From Prauserella cavernicola (GTDB lineage Bacteria > Actinomycetota > Actinomycetes > Mycobacteriales > Pseudonocardiaceae): a stretch of 64,000 nt of DNA. A program made the position numbers and the translations under genes. Under the pieces are notes generated by a model. That model had not been told where the DNA came from, searched no databases, and was given only the letters and a program-made list of their open reading frames with translations. Positions 9,381 to 18,169 of the stretch are shown piece after piece (position 1 is the first letter of the stretch; each line of letters opens with the position of its first letter). Where the stretch lies: assembly GCF_016595675.1 (NCBI RefSeq), contig NZ_JAENJH010000003.1, positions 620,001-684,000 of the forward strand. The letters are read 5' to 3'.

Positions 9381-11558
9381 TTACGTTGCGTAACCCCTCG
9401 TCGCTCGGGCGGCCAACACGGTAACCAACGCCACCGCGACGGCCAGCAGCCCGGTGACCGCGTACACGACCGCACCGAGCGCGGCAGGGCTCGGACCCGA
9501 TGTCACCGCCAGCAGCGGAGGCACGCACGCCAGCGCGGTCAGCAGCCACGTCCTCGGCGCGTTGCTCACTCCGGTCCGCACCGTGTGCAGCAGGGACATG
9601 CCCAGCAACAGGTGCACCAGGCTCTGGATCGGGTCGAGCGGCAGCCCGGCGAGCAACACAGGGCTCTGACCGTCCGCACCGCTGAAACCGCTCAGCGCGA
9701 GCCCGAAGACCCCCAGCGTGGAGAACCCGATGCCCGCCATCGCCGCCGCGTGCCCGAGCCCCCGGTCGAGTCGCCCGGGGGCCGGCCGCCAGGACGGCAA
9801 CGGCGGCGGCCGGTAACCGAGATGACGTTCGAACCACCAGAACACCAGCGCTGCGGGTCCGGTGAGCATGGCGACGGCGACGATGACCCGCAGACTCCCC
9901 GCGGCCAGTCGCTCCGGCAGGTACACCGCCGACACGACGACCAGCATGGCCGCGAGGAAGAGCAGGTACAGGGTCATCGGTGCGCGCGAGGCGAACCCGG
10001 CCGCCCGCAGCACGGCGGTCCTGCCCGCCAGCCGGGACAGCGGAGCGCGAAGCAGACCGAGCAGGCCCAGCTGGACCAGTCCGAGCGCGAGGACCGGCGG
10101 CACCGGCCCGGCGAGCGCGGGCGGATCGGAGGGCGAGCCGAGCAGCGTGGCCGGCACCAGCCCCGTCGCCGCGCCCGCGACGAGCGCGGCCGCTCCGGCG
10201 AGGCACAGCACGGCCAGTGGCCAGGACCGCTCGCGAGTCCGGCCCGCGTGGAGGAACGCCAGCTGCTGGGCGAGCAGCGCGAGGAACACCACGGCGATGT
10301 TGCCGAGCACGGGGGCACCCTGGTCCGGCGTGAGGAACTCGGCGAGCGCGAACGCCGCGACGAGCGCGATCCCCACCGGAACCGGTGCCCGTCGGTGCAG
10401 GGCGAGCAGAGCCGGCGCGGCCACCATCGTCAGCACGTAGACGCCGAGTAGCCACAGCGGATGGAGCGCGATGCGGACCACCACCGCGCTGGTGGAGTCC
10501 GGGATGGTGAGCAGCTCGAGCGCGATGGGCACGGCGAAGGCCACCACGGCGAACACGAGCGTCAGCCGCAGCAGCCAGCTCGCGCGGTGGGCGAGGTACT
10601 CGCGATAGCCCCCGCCGGAGCGGCGCACCGCGAGCCAGCCCGTGAGGTTCGAGTGCCCCGCGGCGAAGAAGAAGACGAACGCCAGCTGCGTCAGCCAGGT
10701 GAACGGCGAGAGCCACGCGTCCTCGGCGCCCGCCCAGCGAGCGAGCGCGACCGAGGCCTCGCCGAGTACCAGCAACCCGATACTCGCCACTCCGAGCAGT
10801 GTCCAGCGTCCACCGGGAACCGGGGCCGGCCTGGCTGGCTGCTCGGGGACCAGCGGCCTGCTGCGCCGAGCGACAAGCCAGCCGCGCAGCCGGAACGAGA
10901 CGAGGAAGCCGATCACGGCGACGCCCGCGAGGACCGGCACCAACGGTTCGCCCACCGGTGGACCCCAGCGTTGATGCCACGAGTTGACGACGATTCCGGC
11001 CGAATAGAGCGAGGCCGTGGCCTGGCACAGCTGCGGCGTGCCCTTCGGGTTTGTCTCGCAGGTGGCGTGCATGTCGGCGGAGAGCCGGTCGTCGAGCGCC
11101 CCGCGCACCTCGGGCCCGAGCGGATGCCCCTTCTTCTCCGCATAGCGCAACAGGTCGTAGCCGAGGTCGTGTGCTTGGCAGGGAGTGCCGAAGTCCCAGC
11201 GGGTGTCGTCGTCTCCCCACGGAGTCGAGCAGCCACCGTCGACGTGCACGGCGCGCATCGTGCCGTCGAACGCACGCGCCTCGCCGGGCTGCACACCCGT
11301 CACGTCGGCGAAGTCGGCGGGAATCAGCCCGAGCGCGTCGGGGGAGTCACCGGGAGCGAGCAGGGAGTCGATGGCGCCCTGTGCGGCCGCGACGTCGCCG
11401 CGTGGCGGGCCCTGTTCCGGCGGTGCCTCCGATCGTGAGGCGACGAAACCGAAGCCCGTCACCACGAGCACGAGGAGCACGATCCAGGCCGAGGTCCCGA
11501 GGACACCGCGCCCGCGTCTCGACACGGGCGCCGCGATCTCCTCGGTTGGAGCGGCCAT
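9381..11558 (-). CDS. Phospholipase A2-like domain fused to multi-spanning (acyltransferase-3-like) membrane domain
   Basis: 725 residues. After a membrane anchor (23-40), residues about 55-185 resemble prokaryotic phospholipase A2: Cys110, then DFGTPCQAHDLGYDLLRYA with the His130-Asp131 pair and Cys127. About ten hydrophobic helices follow (200-725), including VFFFAAGHSNLTGWLAVRRSG and HPLWLLGVYVLTMVAAP, which resembles acyltransferase-3/OafA-type membrane proteins. The PLA2 domain should face outside. A combined lipid deacylation/acyl-handling role is an inference. The gene stands alone between the LCP and GGDEF genes. Confidence 0.7.
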   Translation of the reverse strand: MAAPTEEIAAPVSRRGRGVLGTSAWIVLLVLVVTGFGFVASRSEAPPEQGPPRGDVAAAQGAIDSLLAPGDSPDALGLIPADFADVTGVQPGEARAFDGTMRAVHVDGGCSTPWGDDDTRWDFGTPCQAHDLGYDLLRYAEKKGHPLGPEVRGALDDRLSADMHATCETNPKGTPQLCQATASLYSAGIVVNSWHQRWGPPVGEPLVPVLAGVAVIGFLVSFRLRGWLVARRSRPLVPEQPARPAPVPGGRWTLLGVASIGLLVLGEASVALARWAGAEDAWLSPFTWLTQLAFVFFFAAGHSNLTGWLAVRRSGGGYREYLAHRASWLLRLTLVFAVVAFAVPIALELLTIPDSTSAVVVRIALHPLWLLGVYVLTMVAAPALLALHRRAPVPVGIALVAAFALAEFLTPDQGAPVLGNIAVVFLALLAQQLAFLHAGRTRERSWPLAVLCLAGAAALVAGAATGLVPATLLGSPSDPPALAGPVPPVLALGLVQLGLLGLLRAPLSRLAGRTAVLRAAGFASRAPMTLYLLFLAAMLVVVSAVYLPERLAAGSLRVIVAVAMLTGPAALVFWWFERHLGYRPPPLPSWRPAPGRLDRGLGHAAAMAGIGFSTLGVFGLALSGFSGADGQSPVLLAGLPLDPIQSLVHLLLGMSLLHTVRTGVSNAPRTWLLTALACVPPLLAVTSGPSPAALGAVVYAVTGLLAVAVALVTVLAARATRGYAT

Positions 11559-11661: not shown

Positions 11662-13047
11662 CTACCGTGCGGCGGACTCGGCGAAGCGGACCTGATTGCG
11701 GCCGTTCTCCTTCGCCTCGTACACGGCCGCGTCGGCCGCCTGCATGAGCCCGGTCAGGGTGCTCGCGTGCACCGGGTAGACGGCGACGCCGATGGACGTG
11801 GTGCGCTCCGTGATCGTGGTCTGCGCGCCGCGTTTGTCGGTGGTGTCGATCCGCAGGTCGGCGATCGTGTGCCGGACGCGTTCCGCGGCGACCTCGGCCG
11901 CGGGGGCGTCGGCGTCGGGCAGCAGCACGAGGAATTCCTCGCCGCCGAAGCGGCCGACGATGTCGGCGGGGCGGGTGACCTCGCCGAGCGCCTTGGCGAC
12001 CGCGCCGAGCACGTCGTCTCCCGCCGGGTGCCCGAAGTTGTCGTTGATCCACTTGAAATGGTCGAGGTCGATCATGAGCATCGACAGGTTGCCGTCGGCG
12101 CGGCGGATCCGCGTGAGCGCGCGCTCGGCCGACTCCGACCAGCCGCGCATGTTGAGCAGCCCGGTCTTCGGGTCGGTCACCACGTCGTCCTGCAACTGGT
12201 CGAGCTCGGCGAGGCGATTGAAGAACACCGTGACCACGGCCATGATCACGACCGACGGCGGCATCGTCACCACCAGCACCGCCGTGACCGCGCCGAGACC
12301 TGTGGTGATGGCCTCGAGGAGGTTGTCCGCCTTGCTGCCCAGCACGTTGCGCAGCGTGGGATTCGGCTCACTGAGCGCGAGAATGCCGCCGACGTAGATC
12401 AGCTGGACGCCCTCGTAGACCGCGGCGGCCACGAGCACGAGGGCGAACTCGCGCAGCGACCCGGTAGCCGTGAGCGTGTGCCAGTCGCTCGGTCCGAGTG
12501 CGGTATAGACCACTCCCGCGAGCGCGGCGGCCACACTGTGCGAAATGGACGAGAAGACGAAGTTGTGAGCGGGGCGGCGTGCCGTGAACCAGCGCTGGAC
12601 GCGGATCAGGACCACGAGCAGCACCGCGAGCGTCGCGGGCAGCACGAGTACCGCGGGAAAGACCCAGACCGCGATCAGGTCGATGAGCACCGTCTTGGTG
12701 CGGTTGCGCCTGCGTTCCTCCTGCCGCTGGGTGAGCTGGATGTGCACCGTGGCGCCCGCGGCGAGGATCCCGAAGCGCAGCCAGTCCGTGCCCGTCGGGG
12801 TCGCGGCGGTGGCGAAGGCGACGACGAAGCCCGCGATCGCCACGAGCTCCATCACGATGAGGAACGCGATGAACCGTGTGGGGCGTTGCCACAGCGTCCA
12901 CTTGCGCGGGCCCACCGGGCGACGCCGTGGCGCGGGATCCGGTGCGTTCGGTGGAGGCGCGGGGCCTGTCACGGCCTCGCCCGTCTGGTCTCGTCCACCG
13001 GGGGCGGAAGGCGCCGTCGGCGGCCGATCATGCGGCGTGAGCGGCAC
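11662..13047 (-). CDS. Membrane-bound GGDEF-domain protein (probable diguanylate cyclase)
   Basis: 461 residues from GTG 13047 (GGGGAGG 8 bp upstream). A Pro-rich N-terminus leads into about eight membrane segments (residues 55-285), then a cytosolic GGDEF domain (about 295-455). The intact active-site GGEEF lies in RFGGEEFLVLLPD and the metal-binding aspartate in MLMIDLDHFKWIND. It would make cyclic di-GMP from GTP. The membrane part has no recognisable sensor domain. It is divergent from the hexapeptide array. Confidence 0.9.
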   Translation of the reverse strand: MPLTPHDRPPTAPSAPGGRDQTGEAVTGPAPPPNAPDPAPRRRPVGPRKWTLWQRPTRFIAFLIVMELVAIAGFVVAFATAATPTGTDWLRFGILAAGATVHIQLTQRQEERRRNRTKTVLIDLIAVWVFPAVLVLPATLAVLLVVLIRVQRWFTARRPAHNFVFSSISHSVAAALAGVVYTALGPSDWHTLTATGSLREFALVLVAAAVYEGVQLIYVGGILALSEPNPTLRNVLGSKADNLLEAITTGLGAVTAVLVVTMPPSVVIMAVVTVFFNRLAELDQLQDDVVTDPKTGLLNMRGWSESAERALTRIRRADGNLSMLMIDLDHFKWINDNFGHPAGDDVLGAVAKALGEVTRPADIVGRFGGEEFLVLLPDADAPAAEVAAERVRHTIADLRIDTTDKRGAQTTITERTTSIGVAVYPVHASTLTGLMQAADAAVYEAKENGRNQVRFAESAAR

Positions 13048-13235
13048 GCGCCAAACCTCCCCGAGTTGCTTGTTCCGGCGGTTAAGTACCCTCTACCACG
13101 TCCGCGAGCGAACGGGGCGCTCTCCACAGCAGGTATCATCTCACCGCGCCAGAACTGTCGTGTAGGTGAGCACTGAGGCATGTAGTGTCGGGACGCTCAC
13201 CACTCGGCTCAAAGGGCGATCGGAGGTGTTCTCCC

Positions 13236-13256
13236 TTGCCTGGCCGTGACTTCTGA
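13236..13256 (+). CDS. Hexapeptide unit 1 (MPGRDF)
   Basis: TTG start with GGAGG at 13222-13226 (spacing 9). The six codons read Met-Pro-Gly-Arg-Asp-Phe, then TGA. It is the first of the array and the only unit with a TTG start. Confidence 0.7.
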   Translation: MPGRDF

Positions 13257-13306
13257 TCTAGAACAAACACATGTTGGTTGATTGCGCGCTCAATGGGAGG
13301 TGCCCC

Positions 13307-13327
13307 GTGTCCGGTCGCGATTTCTGA
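13307..13327 (+). CDS. Hexapeptide unit 2 (MSGRDF)
   Basis: GTG start, GGGAGG at 13295-13300 (spacing 6). It is the only unit using CGC for Arg; Asp is GAT. Confidence 0.75.
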   Translation: MSGRDF

Positions 13328-13379
13328 GCCCTGTCGTAGGTGAACTCTGATGGTTGTCGAAGTAAAGGAGGCGGTTCCG

Positions 13380-13400
13380 GTGACCGGTCGTGATTTCTGA
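13380..13400 (+). CDS. Hexapeptide unit 3 (MTGRDF)
   Basis: GTG start, near-perfect ribosome site AAAGGAGG ending at 13371 (spacing 8). Codons GGT, CGT, GAT, TTC, then TGA. Confidence 0.75.
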   Translation: MTGRDF

Positions 13401-13449
13401 AACACGTTCTGTTCCGCAATATCGTTAACGAGTGTTAAGGAGGTGTGTC

Positions 13450-13470
13450 GTGGCCGGTCGTGACTTCTGA
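13450..13470 (+). CDS. Hexapeptide unit 4 (MAGRDF)
   Basis: GTG start, TAAGGAGG ending at 13443 (spacing 6). Codons GGT, CGT, GAC, TTC, then TGA. Confidence 0.75.
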   Translation: MAGRDF

Positions 13471-13526
13471 GGAAGCGTAGTCGGAAGTGGAGTGACGAGA
13501 CGGGAAGGCCGAGGAGGTGTCCGCAA

Positions 13527-13547
13527 GTGCGTGGCCGTGATTTCTGA
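13527..13547 (+). CDS. Hexapeptide unit 5 (MRGRDF)
   Basis: GTG start, GAGGAGG at 13511-13517 (spacing 9). Arg is at the variable second position; Gly is GGC and Asp GAT. Confidence 0.75.
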   Translation: MRGRDF

Positions 13548-13615
13548 ACACTCGCAGTCATTATGAGTACTCACAGTGACAATTCTTATTAATCGTGACC
13601 GAGGAGGTGCCCCTG

Positions 13616-13636
13616 ATGTCTGGTCGTGACTTCTGA
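13616..13636 (+). CDS. Hexapeptide unit 6 (MSGRDF)
   Basis: ATG start, the only ATG in the array, with GAGGAGG at 13601-13607 (spacing 8). It encodes the same peptide as unit 2 with different synonymous codons (TCT, GGT, CGT, GAC). It ends 48 bp before the stop of the convergent MFS gene. Confidence 0.78.
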   Translation: MSGRDF

Positions 13637-13683
13637 ATGTCCCGCATTTGTTTTTCCCCGTTCGTGCCCGCTCAGCGGCGGAA

Positions 13684-14883
13684 CTATCCGGCGATGGTCC
13701 GGACGCGTGCCCACGAAAGCGCGACCGGCACGGTGAAAACGACACCGGCGATGCCGGCGAGCGCGATAGCGGTGGTCGCGGAGCCGACCCATTCCGCGAG
13801 GACGCCGCCCAGCGCCACCCCCAGCCCCTGCGCTACCCGCAGTCCGGTGCGGTACACCCCGCCCGCGCCGCCGCGTAACTCGTTGGGAACCCAGGTGATG
13901 AACGTGGCGCCGACGGTGATGATGTAGGCCCCCGCAGCGCCCGCGAGCGCCAGTAGCAGCAGTGCCATTGGCAGTCCGGGTTCGAGCAGGAAGCCGACGA
14001 GCACCGCGGCCGCGGCCGTCGCGAGCACCCCGAGGTACCGCCTCCGGTTCTCGGCGGAGACGAAGCGCGAGAGCACGAAGGCGCCGAGGATGAAGCCGAC
14101 GGGGTCGGCGGCGAGCAGCCAGCCGACCGCCTGTTCTCCCGCCCCGATCTGGTGTGCGAGCGGCGCGGCGAGTCCCTCCGGGATCACGGCGAGGCCGACG
14201 AGCCACGAGAACGCGAGCAGAACTCTGAGCCTGCGCTGGCCGAATACCCACTGGACGGCGCCGAACCACGGCTCGTCCGGATCGCCTGCCGCGGGCCGCC
14301 AGCGCACCTGCCAGCGCACGACCAAGGCCGCCACCACGAAGGTCAGCGCGTCGATGCCGAGCGCCAGTGACGGGCCGAGGGTGGTCACGAGCACGCCACC
14401 GCTGGCGAGGCCGACGAGCATCGCGACGTTGGTGGTGATCCCGCGCAGGTCCTGACTGCGCAGGTAGACCTCGTCGTCGGTGAAGACCTCTCTGGTGAGC
14501 GCGTTCTGTGCCGCGTTCACCGGTGCGCCCGCCAGCCGCACACCCACGATCAGCACGCACAACAGCACCAGCGGGGTGCCGGGGATGGCCATGGCGCCCA
14601 CCAGCACCGCCTGGATCAGGGCGCAGACGACGAGCACCGTCCTGCGCGGGAACCGGTCGGCGAGCTGGGACAGCCCGAGCCCGCCCGCGAGCGCTGGCAG
14701 GAAGGACAGGGCGTAGACCACCGCGGCCCACAGAGGGGACCCGGTGCGGGAGTAGACGACGATGGCGAGCGCGACCGTGGTGAGGTGGTCGCCCGCCACC
14801 GACTGTGCTTCGGCCAGCCACAGTGCGCGGAACTCCGGGTTGCGGAACGCGACATTCATCCGTGGTGCCGTGCTGGTACCCAC
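13684..14883 (-). CDS. Major facilitator superfamily exporter (EntS/MFS_3-like)
   Basis: About 399 residues from GTG 14883. A farther TTG at 14931 and a later ATG (MNVAFRNPEF) are alternatives, and no start has a clear ribosome site. The family hallmark FRNPEFRALWLAEAQSVAGDHL opens the protein. About twelve hydrophobic helices follow, with the loop LADRFPRRTVLVV between helices 2 and 3. It resembles proton-driven exporters of siderophores or macrolides. Its 3' end converges on the hexapeptide array; a transport role for the peptides would be only a guess. Confidence 0.85.
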   Translation of the reverse strand: MGTSTAPRMNVAFRNPEFRALWLAEAQSVAGDHLTTVALAIVVYSRTGSPLWAAVVYALSFLPALAGGLGLSQLADRFPRRTVLVVCALIQAVLVGAMAIPGTPLVLLCVLIVGVRLAGAPVNAAQNALTREVFTDDEVYLRSQDLRGITTNVAMLVGLASGGVLVTTLGPSLALGIDALTFVVAALVVRWQVRWRPAAGDPDEPWFGAVQWVFGQRRLRVLLAFSWLVGLAVIPEGLAAPLAHQIGAGEQAVGWLLAADPVGFILGAFVLSRFVSAENRRRYLGVLATAAAAVLVGFLLEPGLPMALLLLALAGAAGAYIITVGATFITWVPNELRGGAGGVYRTGLRVAQGLGVALGGVLAEWVGSATTAIALAGIAGVVFTVPVALSWARVRTIAG

Positions 14884-15250
14884 CCTGTCACCCTGTACTG
14901 ATTCGATTACCCCGTGCAACACTCGAGCCAACGTTAATTTTTACCCCGGTTACGGGGAGACATACAGCGAACGTCGCCCGGATGGGACCAACGGCGTCCG
15001 CCCTTCCTCCATCCGCCCGCAGCCCAAAGTACGGGGGCCGCGCTGCGGACCGGCGTCCGCCCGGCGGAGCGTGCCCGCCGCGCGCTTCCGCCCGGCAGTT
15101 TCCCGGAGCCGATCAGCGCTCACTCGTTCGGCGCAGTGTGACAGCCGTTCGGCGAGCTCAGTGGGCCACGGGCTCTCCCGTGACGAACACTGGGAGAGTC
15201 GCCGGCCGCACGCGTTGACCGGGCGTGGGCCTGCGCTGGAGGGGTGGGAG
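14884..15250. other. Intergenic region between divergent MFS and SDR genes
   Basis: About 370 bp with no convincing gene. A short hairpin CCCCG-GTTA-CGGGG lies at 14944-14957. The remainder is GC-rich with only shadow reading frames. It should hold the promoters of both genes, but I see no clear -35/-10 pair. Confidence 0.4.
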
Positions 15251-16174
15251 ATGACGATGAACGAGCAGCAGCTCAAAGGTCTCGAGGGCAAAGCCGTCGT
15301 GGTGACCGGCGCCGGGCGGGGCCTGGGGGAGGCGTTCGCCGTGCATGCCGCGCAGGCGGGTGCGTCGGTGGTCGTGAACGACATCGACGGCGAGCTCGCC
15401 GAGGCCGCCGCGGCGAACATCAGGGCGCACGGCGGACGTGCCGTGGCCAGCGGGCACAGCGTGGCCGACCCGGAGCAGGCCCGCGCGATCATCGAACTGT
15501 GCGAGTCGGAGTTCGGCTCCGTCGACGGCCTGGTGAACAACGCGGGCCTCAACTACGAGGCGTTGCCGTGGCAGGACGAGCCCGCGCAGGTCAAGGAACT
15601 GATCGAGACCAACGTCCTCGGCGTCATCTACACCGGGACGGCCGCGGCCGACGCGATGGTGCGGCTCGGCGGAGGCGGTTCGATCGTCAACATCTCGTCG
15701 GGCGCCTCGCTGGGCCAGCGCAAGCTCGCGACGTACGCGGCGAGTAAGGGCGCGGTCGCGTCGCTGACGTACTCGTGGGCGCTCGACATGGAGGACGTCG
15801 GCATCCGGGTGAACGCGGTCTGCCCGCTCGCGCACACCCGCATGGTGTGGAAGTCGGAGCGCTCGCTGCGCAACTGTCCGCCCGAGCGGACGCCCTCGCG
15901 GATCGCGCCGGTGGTGCTGTTCCTGCTCGGCGACGGTGCGCACGGCATCACCGGCCAGCTGATCCGGTGCAACGGCCCGCAGCTGCACATCATGGGCCAG
16001 CCGTACCTGAAGGCGCCGATCCTCGAGCGGCAGGTGTGGGACTCCGACAGCGTGCAGCGCGCTTTCGACGAGGTGTTCGGCGCCCACCTGGAGCCCTACG
16101 GCCTCGAGAAGCGCGTGCCACCGCGGCTGCGCAAGTGGACCGAGGGTCCCTCGACGCCGCTGCGCAGCGCCTGA
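15251..16174 (+). CDS. Short-chain dehydrogenase/reductase
   Basis: 307 residues from ATG 15251, behind a GGAGGGGTGGGAG ribosome region. Classical SDR features are visible: the cofactor motif TGAGRGLG, VNNAG, the SSGAS catalytic Ser region and YAASKG (Tyr-x3-Lys). A C-terminal extension of about 60 residues (QPYLKAPILERQVWDSD..) exceeds the usual 250-residue length and resembles SDRs of steroid and fatty-acid catabolism. It converges with an acyl-CoA synthetase gene. Confidence 0.85.
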   Translation: MTMNEQQLKGLEGKAVVVTGAGRGLGEAFAVHAAQAGASVVVNDIDGELAEAAAANIRAHGGRAVASGHSVADPEQARAIIELCESEFGSVDGLVNNAGLNYEALPWQDEPAQVKELIETNVLGVIYTGTAAADAMVRLGGGGSIVNISSGASLGQRKLATYAASKGAVASLTYSWALDMEDVGIRVNAVCPLAHTRMVWKSERSLRNCPPERTPSRIAPVVLFLLGDGAHGITGQLIRCNGPQLHIMGQPYLKAPILERQVWDSDSVQRAFDEVFGAHLEPYGLEKRVPPRLRKWTEGPSTPLRSA

Positions 16175-16178
16175 GCGG

Positions 16179-16211
16179 GCTGCCCACGGTCCCGCCGGGG
16201 CCGTGGGCAGC
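16179..16211. terminator. Bidirectional hairpin terminator
   Basis: Perfect 11-bp arms GCTGCCCACGG / CCGTGGGCAGC with an 11-nt loop, in the 42-bp gap between convergent SDR and acyl-CoA synthetase genes. Confidence 0.65.
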
Positions 16212-16216
16212 GACCC

Positions 16217-18052
16217 TCAGACCTCGTACAGCGCGACGATGTCGGGCTCGTAGCGCTGCGAGATGATCCGGCGCTTCAGCTTGAGTGTGGGCGTCAGCTC
16301 GCCGCTCTCCGGCGTCCACGCCTTGGTCAGCAGCCGGTAGCGCTTGATCTGCTCGACCCTGGCCAGTCGCTCGTTGGCGGCCTCGACGGCGCGGTCGATC
16401 TCGGCCACCACCTCGGGGTGGCTCGCGAGGTCGGCGACCTCGGCCGCGTCGATGCCCTTCGACGCGGCCCAGCCCGGCGCGATCTCGTCGTCGAGCACCA
16501 CCAGTGCCGTGACGTAGGGCTTGCCGTCGCCGATCGCCACCGCCTGGCCGATGAGCGGGTGTTCCTTGAGCAGGCCCTCGATCCTGGTCGGCGCGATGTT
16601 CTTGCCGCCGGCCGTGATGATGAGTTCCTTCTTGCGGTCGGTGATGGTGACGAAGCCGTCGTCGTCGATCGTGCCGATGTCGCCGGTGGGGAACCACCCC
16701 TCGGCGTCGGTCGCTCGCTCGATCGACCCGTCCTCCTGCAGGTAGCCGGGGAACACGATCGGGCCCCTGACGAACAGTTCGCCGTCCTCGCCGATGCGCA
16801 CCTCGATGTCGGCGAGCGGTCGGCCGACGGAGCCCGCCTTGAAACCCTCCGCGGTGTTGGAGGTGGCCGCGCCCGTGGTCTCCGACAGGCCCCACACCTC
16901 CTGGATCTCCACCCCGAGCCCGGCGATGAAGTACAGGACCTCGATCGGGAGCGCGGCGGCTCCGCTGGAGGCGAGTGCGAGGTTGTCGAGCCCGAGCATC
17001 TGGCGGACGGGCGCGAGCACGGTCCGGTCGGCCTCGTCGATCCGCGCGGCCAGCTCGGCGGGCACCTCCTCGCCCGCGCTGCGCAGCTTGTAGCCCTGCT
17101 GCAGCAGCTCGTTGGCCTCCAGCAGCGCCGTGCGCCGTTCCTCCGGCACCCCGGCGAGCAGGTTCTTCAGGCCCGCCACCATCTTCTCCCACACGCGAGG
17201 CACGCCGAAGAGGACGTCGGGGTGCACCCGGCCGAGCGCGCCGACGAGCCCCGCGGGGTCGCCGAGGGTGTGCACGTGACCCGCGTACACGATCGGCAGA
17301 TAGATCGAGAGCTCCCGCTCGGCGATGTGCGCCAGCGGCAGGTAGGCGATGTTCTTCATGTGCATCCGGCTGCTGTGCAGCGAGTGCACGGCCAGCGCTT
17401 CGTGGATCGCGTTGCGGTGGGAGAGCACCACGCCCTTGGGCACGCCCGTGGTCCCTGAGGTGTAGATCATCGACAGCGGGTCGTCCGGCGCGATCGCCGC
17501 GGTCGCCCGCTCGAGGACTTCCGGGTCGGCCTCGTGCCTGGCCAGCCCGCGCTCGCGGAGCTCGGCGAAGCGCAGGAAACGGGTGTCGCCAGCCGGCAGC
17601 TCCACCGGGTCGAGGACCACGACGTGCTCCAGACGGGGCAGCTGGTCGAGCACCGGCAGCCACCGGTCGAGTTCGGACTGGCCTGCCAGCACCGCGATCC
17701 GCGCCGAGCTGTGGTTGACGACGTAGGCGATCTGTTCACCGCTGAGCGTCGAGTAGGCGGTGCACGGGATGGCACCGAGGTTGGTCGCCGCGAGGTCGGC
17801 GATCAGGTGCTCGGGCCTGCTCGGAGCCATGATGATCATGCGCTGTCCCGAGGACAGGCCGAGGCCGGCGAGCCCGGCGGCGACGGCGGCGACCTCGTCG
17901 CGCAGCTGGCTCCACGTCAGCGTCGGCGCGTCCTCCACGTCGAGTGACGTGAGCGCCGGCTTGTCGGCGAACTCGGTGGCGTTGCGGCGCAGCAGCTGGG
18001 GGATCGTGAGTTTGTCGGTTTCACTCGCGACCGATTTCTGGTTGAACGGCAA
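16217..18052 (-). CDS. Long-chain acyl-CoA synthetase (FadD15-like)
   Basis: 611 residues. TTG 18052 is chosen because GCGAGGAG lies about 6 bp before it; the ORF opens farther upstream without such a site. The AMP-binding motif TSGTTGVPKGVV and the long-chain FACS features LPLAHIAERE, GLSETTGA, GWFPTGDIGTIDDDG and DRKKELIITAGGKN are visible. The length and the insertion with LLAGVPEERRTALLEANELLQQGYKLR fit FadD15-type enzymes, which activate long-chain fatty acids to CoA esters via acyl-AMP. Confidence 0.92.
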   Translation of the reverse strand: MPFNQKSVASETDKLTIPQLLRRNATEFADKPALTSLDVEDAPTLTWSQLRDEVAAVAAGLAGLGLSSGQRMIIMAPSRPEHLIADLAATNLGAIPCTAYSTLSGEQIAYVVNHSSARIAVLAGQSELDRWLPVLDQLPRLEHVVVLDPVELPAGDTRFLRFAELRERGLARHEADPEVLERATAAIAPDDPLSMIYTSGTTGVPKGVVLSHRNAIHEALAVHSLHSSRMHMKNIAYLPLAHIAERELSIYLPIVYAGHVHTLGDPAGLVGALGRVHPDVLFGVPRVWEKMVAGLKNLLAGVPEERRTALLEANELLQQGYKLRSAGEEVPAELAARIDEADRTVLAPVRQMLGLDNLALASSGAAALPIEVLYFIAGLGVEIQEVWGLSETTGAATSNTAEGFKAGSVGRPLADIEVRIGEDGELFVRGPIVFPGYLQEDGSIERATDAEGWFPTGDIGTIDDDGFVTITDRKKELIITAGGKNIAPTRIEGLLKEHPLIGQAVAIGDGKPYVTALVVLDDEIAPGWAASKGIDAAEVADLASHPEVVAEIDRAVEAANERLARVEQIKRYRLLTKAWTPESGELTPTLKLKRRIISQRYEPDIVALYEV

Positions 18053-18169
18053 CGGAATCTCCTCGCATCGTTGTCGAGGCCGCACAGCCTATGTGCTCGA
18101 CATCACTTTTGGGAACGATGACCGGATCGCTTCGGTGTGGACGGCCGTGCGCCCGGGTGGGCCGATGAC

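Follow-up and report, generated by a model that had tools for sequence, protein, structure and literature searches.

A tandem array of six hexapeptide micro-ORFs in Prauserella cavernicola is probably the ligand gene of a signalling module built around the adjacent membrane diguanylate cyclase (DGC), with a neighbouring MFS transporter exporting the peptide. We give this reading, which draws on comparisons of sequence, a probability of about two in three. The arrays themselves, the three-part module of a DGC gene, a divergent tandem micro-ORF array and a convergent MFS gene, the uniformity of the peptides within each array, the separate peptide of each DGC paralogue and the co-change of the peptide with residue 107 of the DGC are directly observed. 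To our knowledge, most membrane diguanylate cyclases have no known ligand, and no system of peptide pheromones has been established in actinomycetes. A literature search, beyond whose reach most subscription papers lay, brought up no paper describing either the peptides or the arrays.

The hexapeptide array and its neighbours

The window, by which we mean the whole stretch of 64,000 nucleotides that was analysed, carries the following features.

11662..13047, minus strand: membrane diguanylate cyclase, the proposed peptide receptor, with an N-terminal membrane domain (about residues 45-289) and a GGDEF domain
12727..12729, minus strand: codon of DGC residue 107 (Gln in the window), whose alignment column co-changes with residue 3 of the peptide
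13132..13147, no strand assigned: element GGTATCATCTCACCGC, in the gap separating the DGC gene from the array
13222..13256, plus strand: unit 1, SD GGAGG (13222) and TTG ORF 13236-13256, MPGRDF
13296..13327, plus strand: unit 2, SD and GTG ORF 13307-13327, MSGRDF
13367..13400, plus strand: unit 3, SD and GTG ORF 13380-13400, MTGRDF
13439..13470, plus strand: unit 4, SD and GTG ORF 13450-13470, MAGRDF
13513..13547, plus strand: unit 5, SD and GTG ORF 13527-13547, MRGRDF
13603..13636, plus strand: unit 6, SD and ATG ORF 13616-13636, MSGRDF
13684..14862, minus strand: MFS transporter, the proposed peptide exporter (MFS_1/MFS_3; EntS-like, below the equivalog cut-off), convergent with the array

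Every unit reads Met-x-Gly-Arg-Asp-Phe-TGA, with a start and a stop of its own. The sequence-only reading had reported six such MxGRDF units at 13222-13636, each with a GGAGG site 6-9 nt upstream of the start, mixed start codons, and residue 2 as the sole variable (P, S, T, A, R and S in order). Re-reading of the letters confirmed all of these points, with TTG in unit 1, GTG in units 2-5 and ATG in unit 6. The distances between unit starts are 71, 73, 70, 77 and 89 nt. These spacings share no frame, and thus the array is not one longer gene that has been broken. Across the 7.2-Mb genome, the pattern DTG-NNN-GGN-CGN-GAY-TTY-TGA has six matches, all of them in the array and on one strand, and the reversed pattern, serving as a control, has none. 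When up to two mismatches and also a TAA stop were permitted, the window gave six matches; 100 shuffles averaged 0.30 matches and never exceeded 4.

A scan of positions 12900-13900 against Rfam gave zero matches up to an E value of 1, a promoter and terminator scan returned no site on the array strand, and the RNA structure of the array showed no excess over 30 mononucleotide shuffles. The GGTATCATCTCACCGC element is possibly the promoter of one or both directions. Of the 90 loci with units, 52 have its relaxed form, GGTA[TC]CAT[CT][TC]CA, no more than 260 nt ahead of unit 1. An array of binding sites acting at the DNA level was considered and rejected, given that the codons change synonymously and that, beyond the SD, no obvious motif common to the arrays of other peptides is apparent by eye.

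As an enzyme, the DGC is a typical member of its family. The window protein matches the Pfam GGDEF domain (2.4e-42) and, as expected of a diguanylate cyclase, contains GGEEF together with an I-site RxxD (RPAD). GGEEF is present in 58 of the 59 DGC homologues read (it was not found in L253), and RxxD is present in most of them, although not in all. The sensor domain of the window protein has no Pfam match. MASE9 (PF20972) in particular gave none in the window, and two relatives scored E values of 0.022 and 0.16, which fall short of the cut-off. The best hit of the sensor domain among PDB sequences is at chance level (E 0.11).

The sequence-only reading had stated that no same-strand gene lies downstream of the array. 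The nearest downstream gene is the convergent MFS gene, and the next gene on the array strand, an SDR gene at 15248, is 1.6 kb on. At 60 of 93 family loci, the MFS, SDR and FadD11-like acyl ligase genes (13684-18085 in the window) stand in conserved order beside the array. The sequence GATCAGCGCTCACTCGTTCGGCGCAGTG at 15111-15138, upstream of the SDR gene, is possibly a regulator site; by eye, a very similar sequence precedes the SDR gene in relatives from genera g33 and g34. On the minus strand at 9381-11558, a 725-residue protein has a prokaryotic phospholipase A2 domain (PF09056) followed by a long stretch resembling a multi-pass membrane region.

Arrays and peptides beside related cyclases

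The exact pattern matched in 14 of 390 family genomes, including that of the window. G096 has a lone match that is apparently inside a gene, and the remaining 13 genomes have a common locus. In 10 of these 13, a membrane DGC gene is visible, with the array divergent from it on its upstream side. Runs of N fill the place of the DGC in G333, G334 and G335, and the locus was placed by the SDR gene on the other side; no DGC is listed for the first two, and one on another contig (C43) of G335 was used as the partner in the tree and co-change analyses. A scan of a genome collection (84,980 species as described, from which near records may be absent) gave 14 stretches. Eight of them carry two or six matches and all come from Prauserella, Qaidamihabitans and Saccharomonospora, and the other six are single matches elsewhere. 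A separate search of viral contigs gave one single match, at L318:648-679, which is probably due to chance. Among 394 class genomes, an F/Y-type pattern matched in three, namely the window's genome (six matches), one family member (one) and one other (one), and this pattern search found no array outside the family. However, a search guided by the DGC found other peptides in other families, and thus the pattern search alone is misleading.

The family set comprises 93 loci, 13 found by the GRDF pattern and 80 found by a DGC homologue, the latter without an exact match. Peptide types at the DGC-guided loci include xDRDF, xNRDF, xSRDF, xARDF, xGRDY, SSRDW, xDREA, SDRAW, DRDL and RSRDW/SRDW. At the family loci, an array has 1 to 11 copies, which are spaced by a median of 73 nt, and our filter accepted at least one unit at 90 of the 93 loci and at 77 of the 80 picked by DGC alone. 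One of the three filter-negative loci, that of G040, has an eight-residue variant, MSDRDRDA, and no unit was seen at the G202 and G385 loci. The longest arrays among the 93 are those of L156 (11 units, xSDREA), L135 (10, xSSRDF) and L168 (10, xSRDW, of which the filter kept nine).

The arrays are linked to this type of DGC. At least two SD-led mini-ORFs sharing their last three residues were found on the array strand at 70 of 93 family loci, 11 of 20 wider-homologue loci and 9 of 40 paralogue loci, and neither the opposite strand nor shuffled sequence gave any such locus. In the 80 loci chosen by DGC, the same test gave 59 versus 0. A single SD-led mini-ORF occurs at 86/93, 16/20 and 22/40 loci, respectively, compared with 1, 1 and 1 on the opposite strand. 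Shuffles also yield single ORFs of this kind (3.3/93, 1.9/20 and 0.9/40 loci), and so one such ORF is not proof.

Flanking genes, whose comparison across genomes had been suggested as a check, recur as a module of DGC, array and MFS. The MFS gene is convergent beside the array place at 80 of the 93 loci; among the other 13, 11 have the SDR gene with no MFS found, G014 is rearranged and G202 has neither. A homologue of the MFS is placed alike at 17 of the 20 wider-homologue loci, an 18th giving a weak match, and in most paralogue modules; the search drew three of its four queries from those same loci. For the 40 paralogue loci, an MFS gene lies within about 2.4 kb at 22 of the 29 with a micro-ORF versus 3 of the 11 without (Fisher p 0.009, from counts entered by hand).

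The sequence-only reading had argued that selection acts on the peptide rather than on the DNA. Our comparisons support this claim: the peptide is uniform within an array, varies from one array to another and goes along with the membrane DGC beside it. In an alignment with two same-genus genomes, to which no residue filter was applied, codons 3-7 show no change at any of their 60 first and second positions, third positions of codon 3 are equal in three of the six units, and the spacers are diverged as described (172 of 219 columns match). Among units that passed our residue filter, residues 3-6 are uniform in 77 of 80 multi-unit arrays, the exceptions being G263, G115 and G123, and differences between distinct codons within arrays amount to 133 synonymous versus 4 non-synonymous, where 19% synonymous is expected for random single changes. 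The p-value of this contrast takes no account of common descent or of the filter. Non-synonymous change in relatives, named beforehand as a sign against selection on the peptide, does occur, yet it nearly always affects all units of an array together.

The unit filter requires Arg at position 4 and listed endings, and therefore decayed units are under-counted and the counts cannot prove that Arg is invariant. Units missed in this way include LSGCDF in G264 and an apparent relic in L058. The total of 293 units is 295 minus two in-gene matches, VADREA and VAGREA, which still count as units in two rows of the 93-locus gene-order table. The peptide is also repeated in longer ORFs, MRDTNWVLRDTNWSW and MRDNNWTTRRDNNWT, from one genome of family f22 and one genome of the window's family. 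These ORFs favour the peptide itself as the likely product.

In f22, DGC homologues with about 30-37% identity have divergent micro-ORFs at 17 of the 18 loci read. The peptides there are of the RDNTWT type (for example MRDNTWT, MRDSNWT, MRDTTWS, MRDNNWN and MRGNSWD), and in the f22 locus of G491 (L204) the MFS is present with no micro-ORF seen. A profile of the sensor domain only matched in 49 of 256 class genomes, from which 16 loci were read. Families f9, f31 and f34 gave MSSTQWG, VRGWKWS (twice), MRDVHWG and VRNTHWTRA, mostly as single copies recognised by eye, and no recognisable micro-ORF was present at the five f19 loci or the f12 locus read.

Many genomes encode several of these enzymes. 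Among 45 genomes, picked because most had several, the number is 2-10 each. We read 40 paralogue upstream regions and accepted a peptide-like micro-ORF in 29, several of these being single copies judged by eye under a relaxed SD score; the other 11 have no recognisable micro-ORF. In all 15 genomes where at least two peptide-bearing modules were read, each DGC paralogue has a different peptide. For example, G097 has SRDF, DNNWT, GQNW, GRED, DRDM and SRDQ, and G111 has GRDF, ENNW, GKEW and NKDW. In a tree of 59 DGCs, like peptides belong to the same DGC clade across genomes, and once across two families, with clade sets such as DKGW/DKIW, DNNW/DNTWT and NRDN/NRES/SRDN. Like peptides thus share a DGC clade across genomes and differ within a genome, which indicates that the peptide follows the lineage of the DGC and not the genome.

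Co-change of the peptide with DGC residue 107

Residue 107 is the x of HIQLTxRQEERRR, in the loop HIQLTQRQEERRR. A scan of eight clades paired Q107 with Gly at peptide residue 3 and R/H107 with Asp, and a fuller listing adds Ala and Asn to the Q107 side and Glu to the R side. Among 84 DGCs, an acidic peptide residue 3 is combined with R/H in 41 and with S in 3, and a neutral one is combined with Q in 32 and with R in 8; none of the 32 enzymes with Q107 has an acidic partner. A blind prediction, written down beforehand, was right in 39 of 50 genomes, although these partly share genera with the genomes from which the rule was drawn and the label of G040, with its eight-residue form, was set by hand. 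Where residue 3 is acidic, 23 of 26 enzymes have a basic residue and 3 have Ser; where it is neutral, 16 of 24 have Q, and the 8 misses all have R and belong to genus g12. The prediction had named 55 genomes, of which G179, G180, G183, G338 and G130 were left out.

When ancestry is considered, a comparison of dependent- and independent-change models gives a likelihood ratio of 29.5 at residue 107, ranking it first among 278 DGC columns (the next is 20.4), with the provision that the data are in part those that revealed the column. Of the top 16 DGC columns, 15 fall in the membrane domain, which is home to 187 of the 278 tested. A pairwise sign test yielded three supported independent pairs (2.6 in the same direction and about 0 in the opposite one), a number with which significance is out of reach.

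Two relatives with R107 carry four D-type units and a first unit of the G type with a missense change, LSGCDF or LSGRNF. This unit is orthologous to unit 1 of the window (MPGRDF) and stands in the same context. Its state is what one would expect of a ligand unit that has ceased to match its receptor, although the genomes concerned are few, namely two.

Close to residue 107, E110 is nearly invariant and R113 is invariant among the DGCs. The positive-inside rule, applied to the hydropathy profile, suggests that all three residues sit on the cytosolic face of the membrane. It is the positive-inside rule, and nothing else, that places peptide binding on this side.

Candidate mechanism and alternatives

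A multi-copy peptide signal was among the roles first suggested for the array. The findings support this role, and the uniform arrays and the tracking of the DGC extend it. We propose that each micro-ORF is translated directly to give a finished or nearly finished peptide, here (f)M-x-G-R-D-F, with the last four residues carrying specificity and with the many copies and strong ribosome sites providing a high peptide dose. The peptide would bind the neighbouring DGC in its membrane domain, close to the loop that contains residue 107, and thereby alter the c-di-GMP output of the enzyme. The MFS most likely exports or drains the peptide. Because paralogous modules have different peptides, they would be insulated channels operating in parallel. 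Residues on the cytosolic side would fit sensing from inside the cell, of a peptide that is either newly made or re-imported. The module may serve cell-cell signalling, or it may instead sense a state inside the cell, such as the capacity for translation or export.

Another explanation, which we consider unlikely, is that the MFS exports a modified oligopeptide natural product (a minimal RiPP) whose precursors the micro-ORFs encode, with the DGC as a linked regulator. Precursors of five residues exist, such as those of the biarylitides with their 18-bp gene, according to the accessible portion of a report (PMC13417212), aromatic C-termini are common in our peptides, and an exporter-like gene adjoins the array. 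However, the parts that recur at the compared loci are DGC, array and MFS, and no P450 or other modifying enzyme was seen among the six window genes scanned. The DREA and NRES types have no aromatic residue at all, and this explanation leaves both the co-change with the DGC membrane domain and the per-paralogue peptides unaccounted for.

It is quite improbable that an intracellular peptide acts on the MFS, with the DGC responding only indirectly. Most modules include the MFS, and the 11 loci where none was found have 1-2 units, compared with a mean of 3.5 with MFS, but a single deletion could have taken the MFS and the end of the array together and so explain the low number. The peptides persist where the MFS was not found, and therefore the MFS is not essential. 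Moreover, the best of 232 MFS columns in the co-change test reaches 19.8, below the value for DGC residue 107.

Even less favoured is a leader-peptide or attenuator array that acts in cis on a downstream gene. The ORFs are short, their SDs are strong, and in the 11 of 93 loci where no MFS was found the SDR gene follows on the array strand at 0.3-0.5 kb, yet at the 80 loci with a convergent MFS the first gene past the array faces the other way, other lineages have unrelated peptides at the same place, and the array strand has neither a terminator-like site nor an Rfam match. Least probable of all is a role for the act of translation itself, through minigenes that sequester tRNAs or ribosomes, as suggested earlier, or through peptides that shield the ribosome from antibiotics: many strong SDs and a bias to CGT, which encodes Arg in 182 of 293 units at all loci versus 3.5% of the Arg codons of five window genes and for which we have no explanation at hand, would suit it, but it fails to explain the DGC linkage and co-change and is not supported because codons and peptides are unrelated in other lineages (RDNTWT, DKGW, DREA), with residues 3-6 varying by genome and paralogue and sometimes including no Arg (DNNW, DNTWT), whereas a fixed tRNA target predicts otherwise.

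None of the known peptide systems that we compared has its defining features present here. RRNPP systems can form several insulated pairs per genome. In their two-gene design (Rap-Phr, PlcR-PapR), as described in the available part of one source (PMC10075063), a short linear peptide is encoded beside its receptor gene, and the array likewise adjoins the gene of a candidate cognate receptor. However, the tandem, independently translated six-codon ORFs have no pro-peptide or export signal, and their neighbours are a membrane diguanylate cyclase and an MFS rather than a cytosolic TPR/HTH receptor. The MFS also takes the place of the Sec/Opp route, and the hosts are actinomycetes, not Firmicutes.

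Agr and Com systems have a multi-pass membrane receptor beside the peptide gene and specificity groups that co-diverge. Our module shares a multi-pass membrane candidate receptor beside peptide genes, but its output domain is GGDEF and the encoded peptide is mostly 5-8 residues long; neither an AgrB-like protease/endopeptidase nor a histidine kinase is among the window neighbour genes scanned. Biarylitide precursors are defined by the motif MxYxY/H, which MxGRDF lacks, and the arrays differ further in their many tandem copies, their link to a DGC and the lack of a P450 among the six window genes. Common to both are tiny, directly encoded peptide genes, which for biarylitides and other minimal RiPPs (about 18 bp) are overlooked by automatic detection, according to the accessible portions of two reports (PMC13417212, PMC8708641). 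A leader-peptide attenuator differs in that here no same-strand gene is directly downstream and a convergent MFS gene follows in the window. Like MASE-type sensors such as MASE9, the DGC has a multi-pass N-terminal membrane sensor fused to GGDEF, but the window sensor has no Pfam match and is linked to an array of peptide genes.

If the array is indeed the ligand gene of its DGC, the candidate ligand can be read from the DNA beside the candidate receptor in many genomes, and nature has supplied specificity switches in which peptide G or D occurs with enzyme Q107 or R107. As a result, ligand, receptor and specificity are directly testable. On balance, and with somewhat less confidence than for the window itself, we favour the view that actinomycetes have an unrecognised class of signalling in which naked tetra- to hexapeptides encoded by micro-ORF arrays each address their own membrane DGC, with up to six insulated channels per genome that feed into c-di-GMP. 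The ligand genes are only about 21 bp long and are therefore missed by gene finders. If this view is true, arrays of functional genes of this small size would be widespread and overlooked by annotation.
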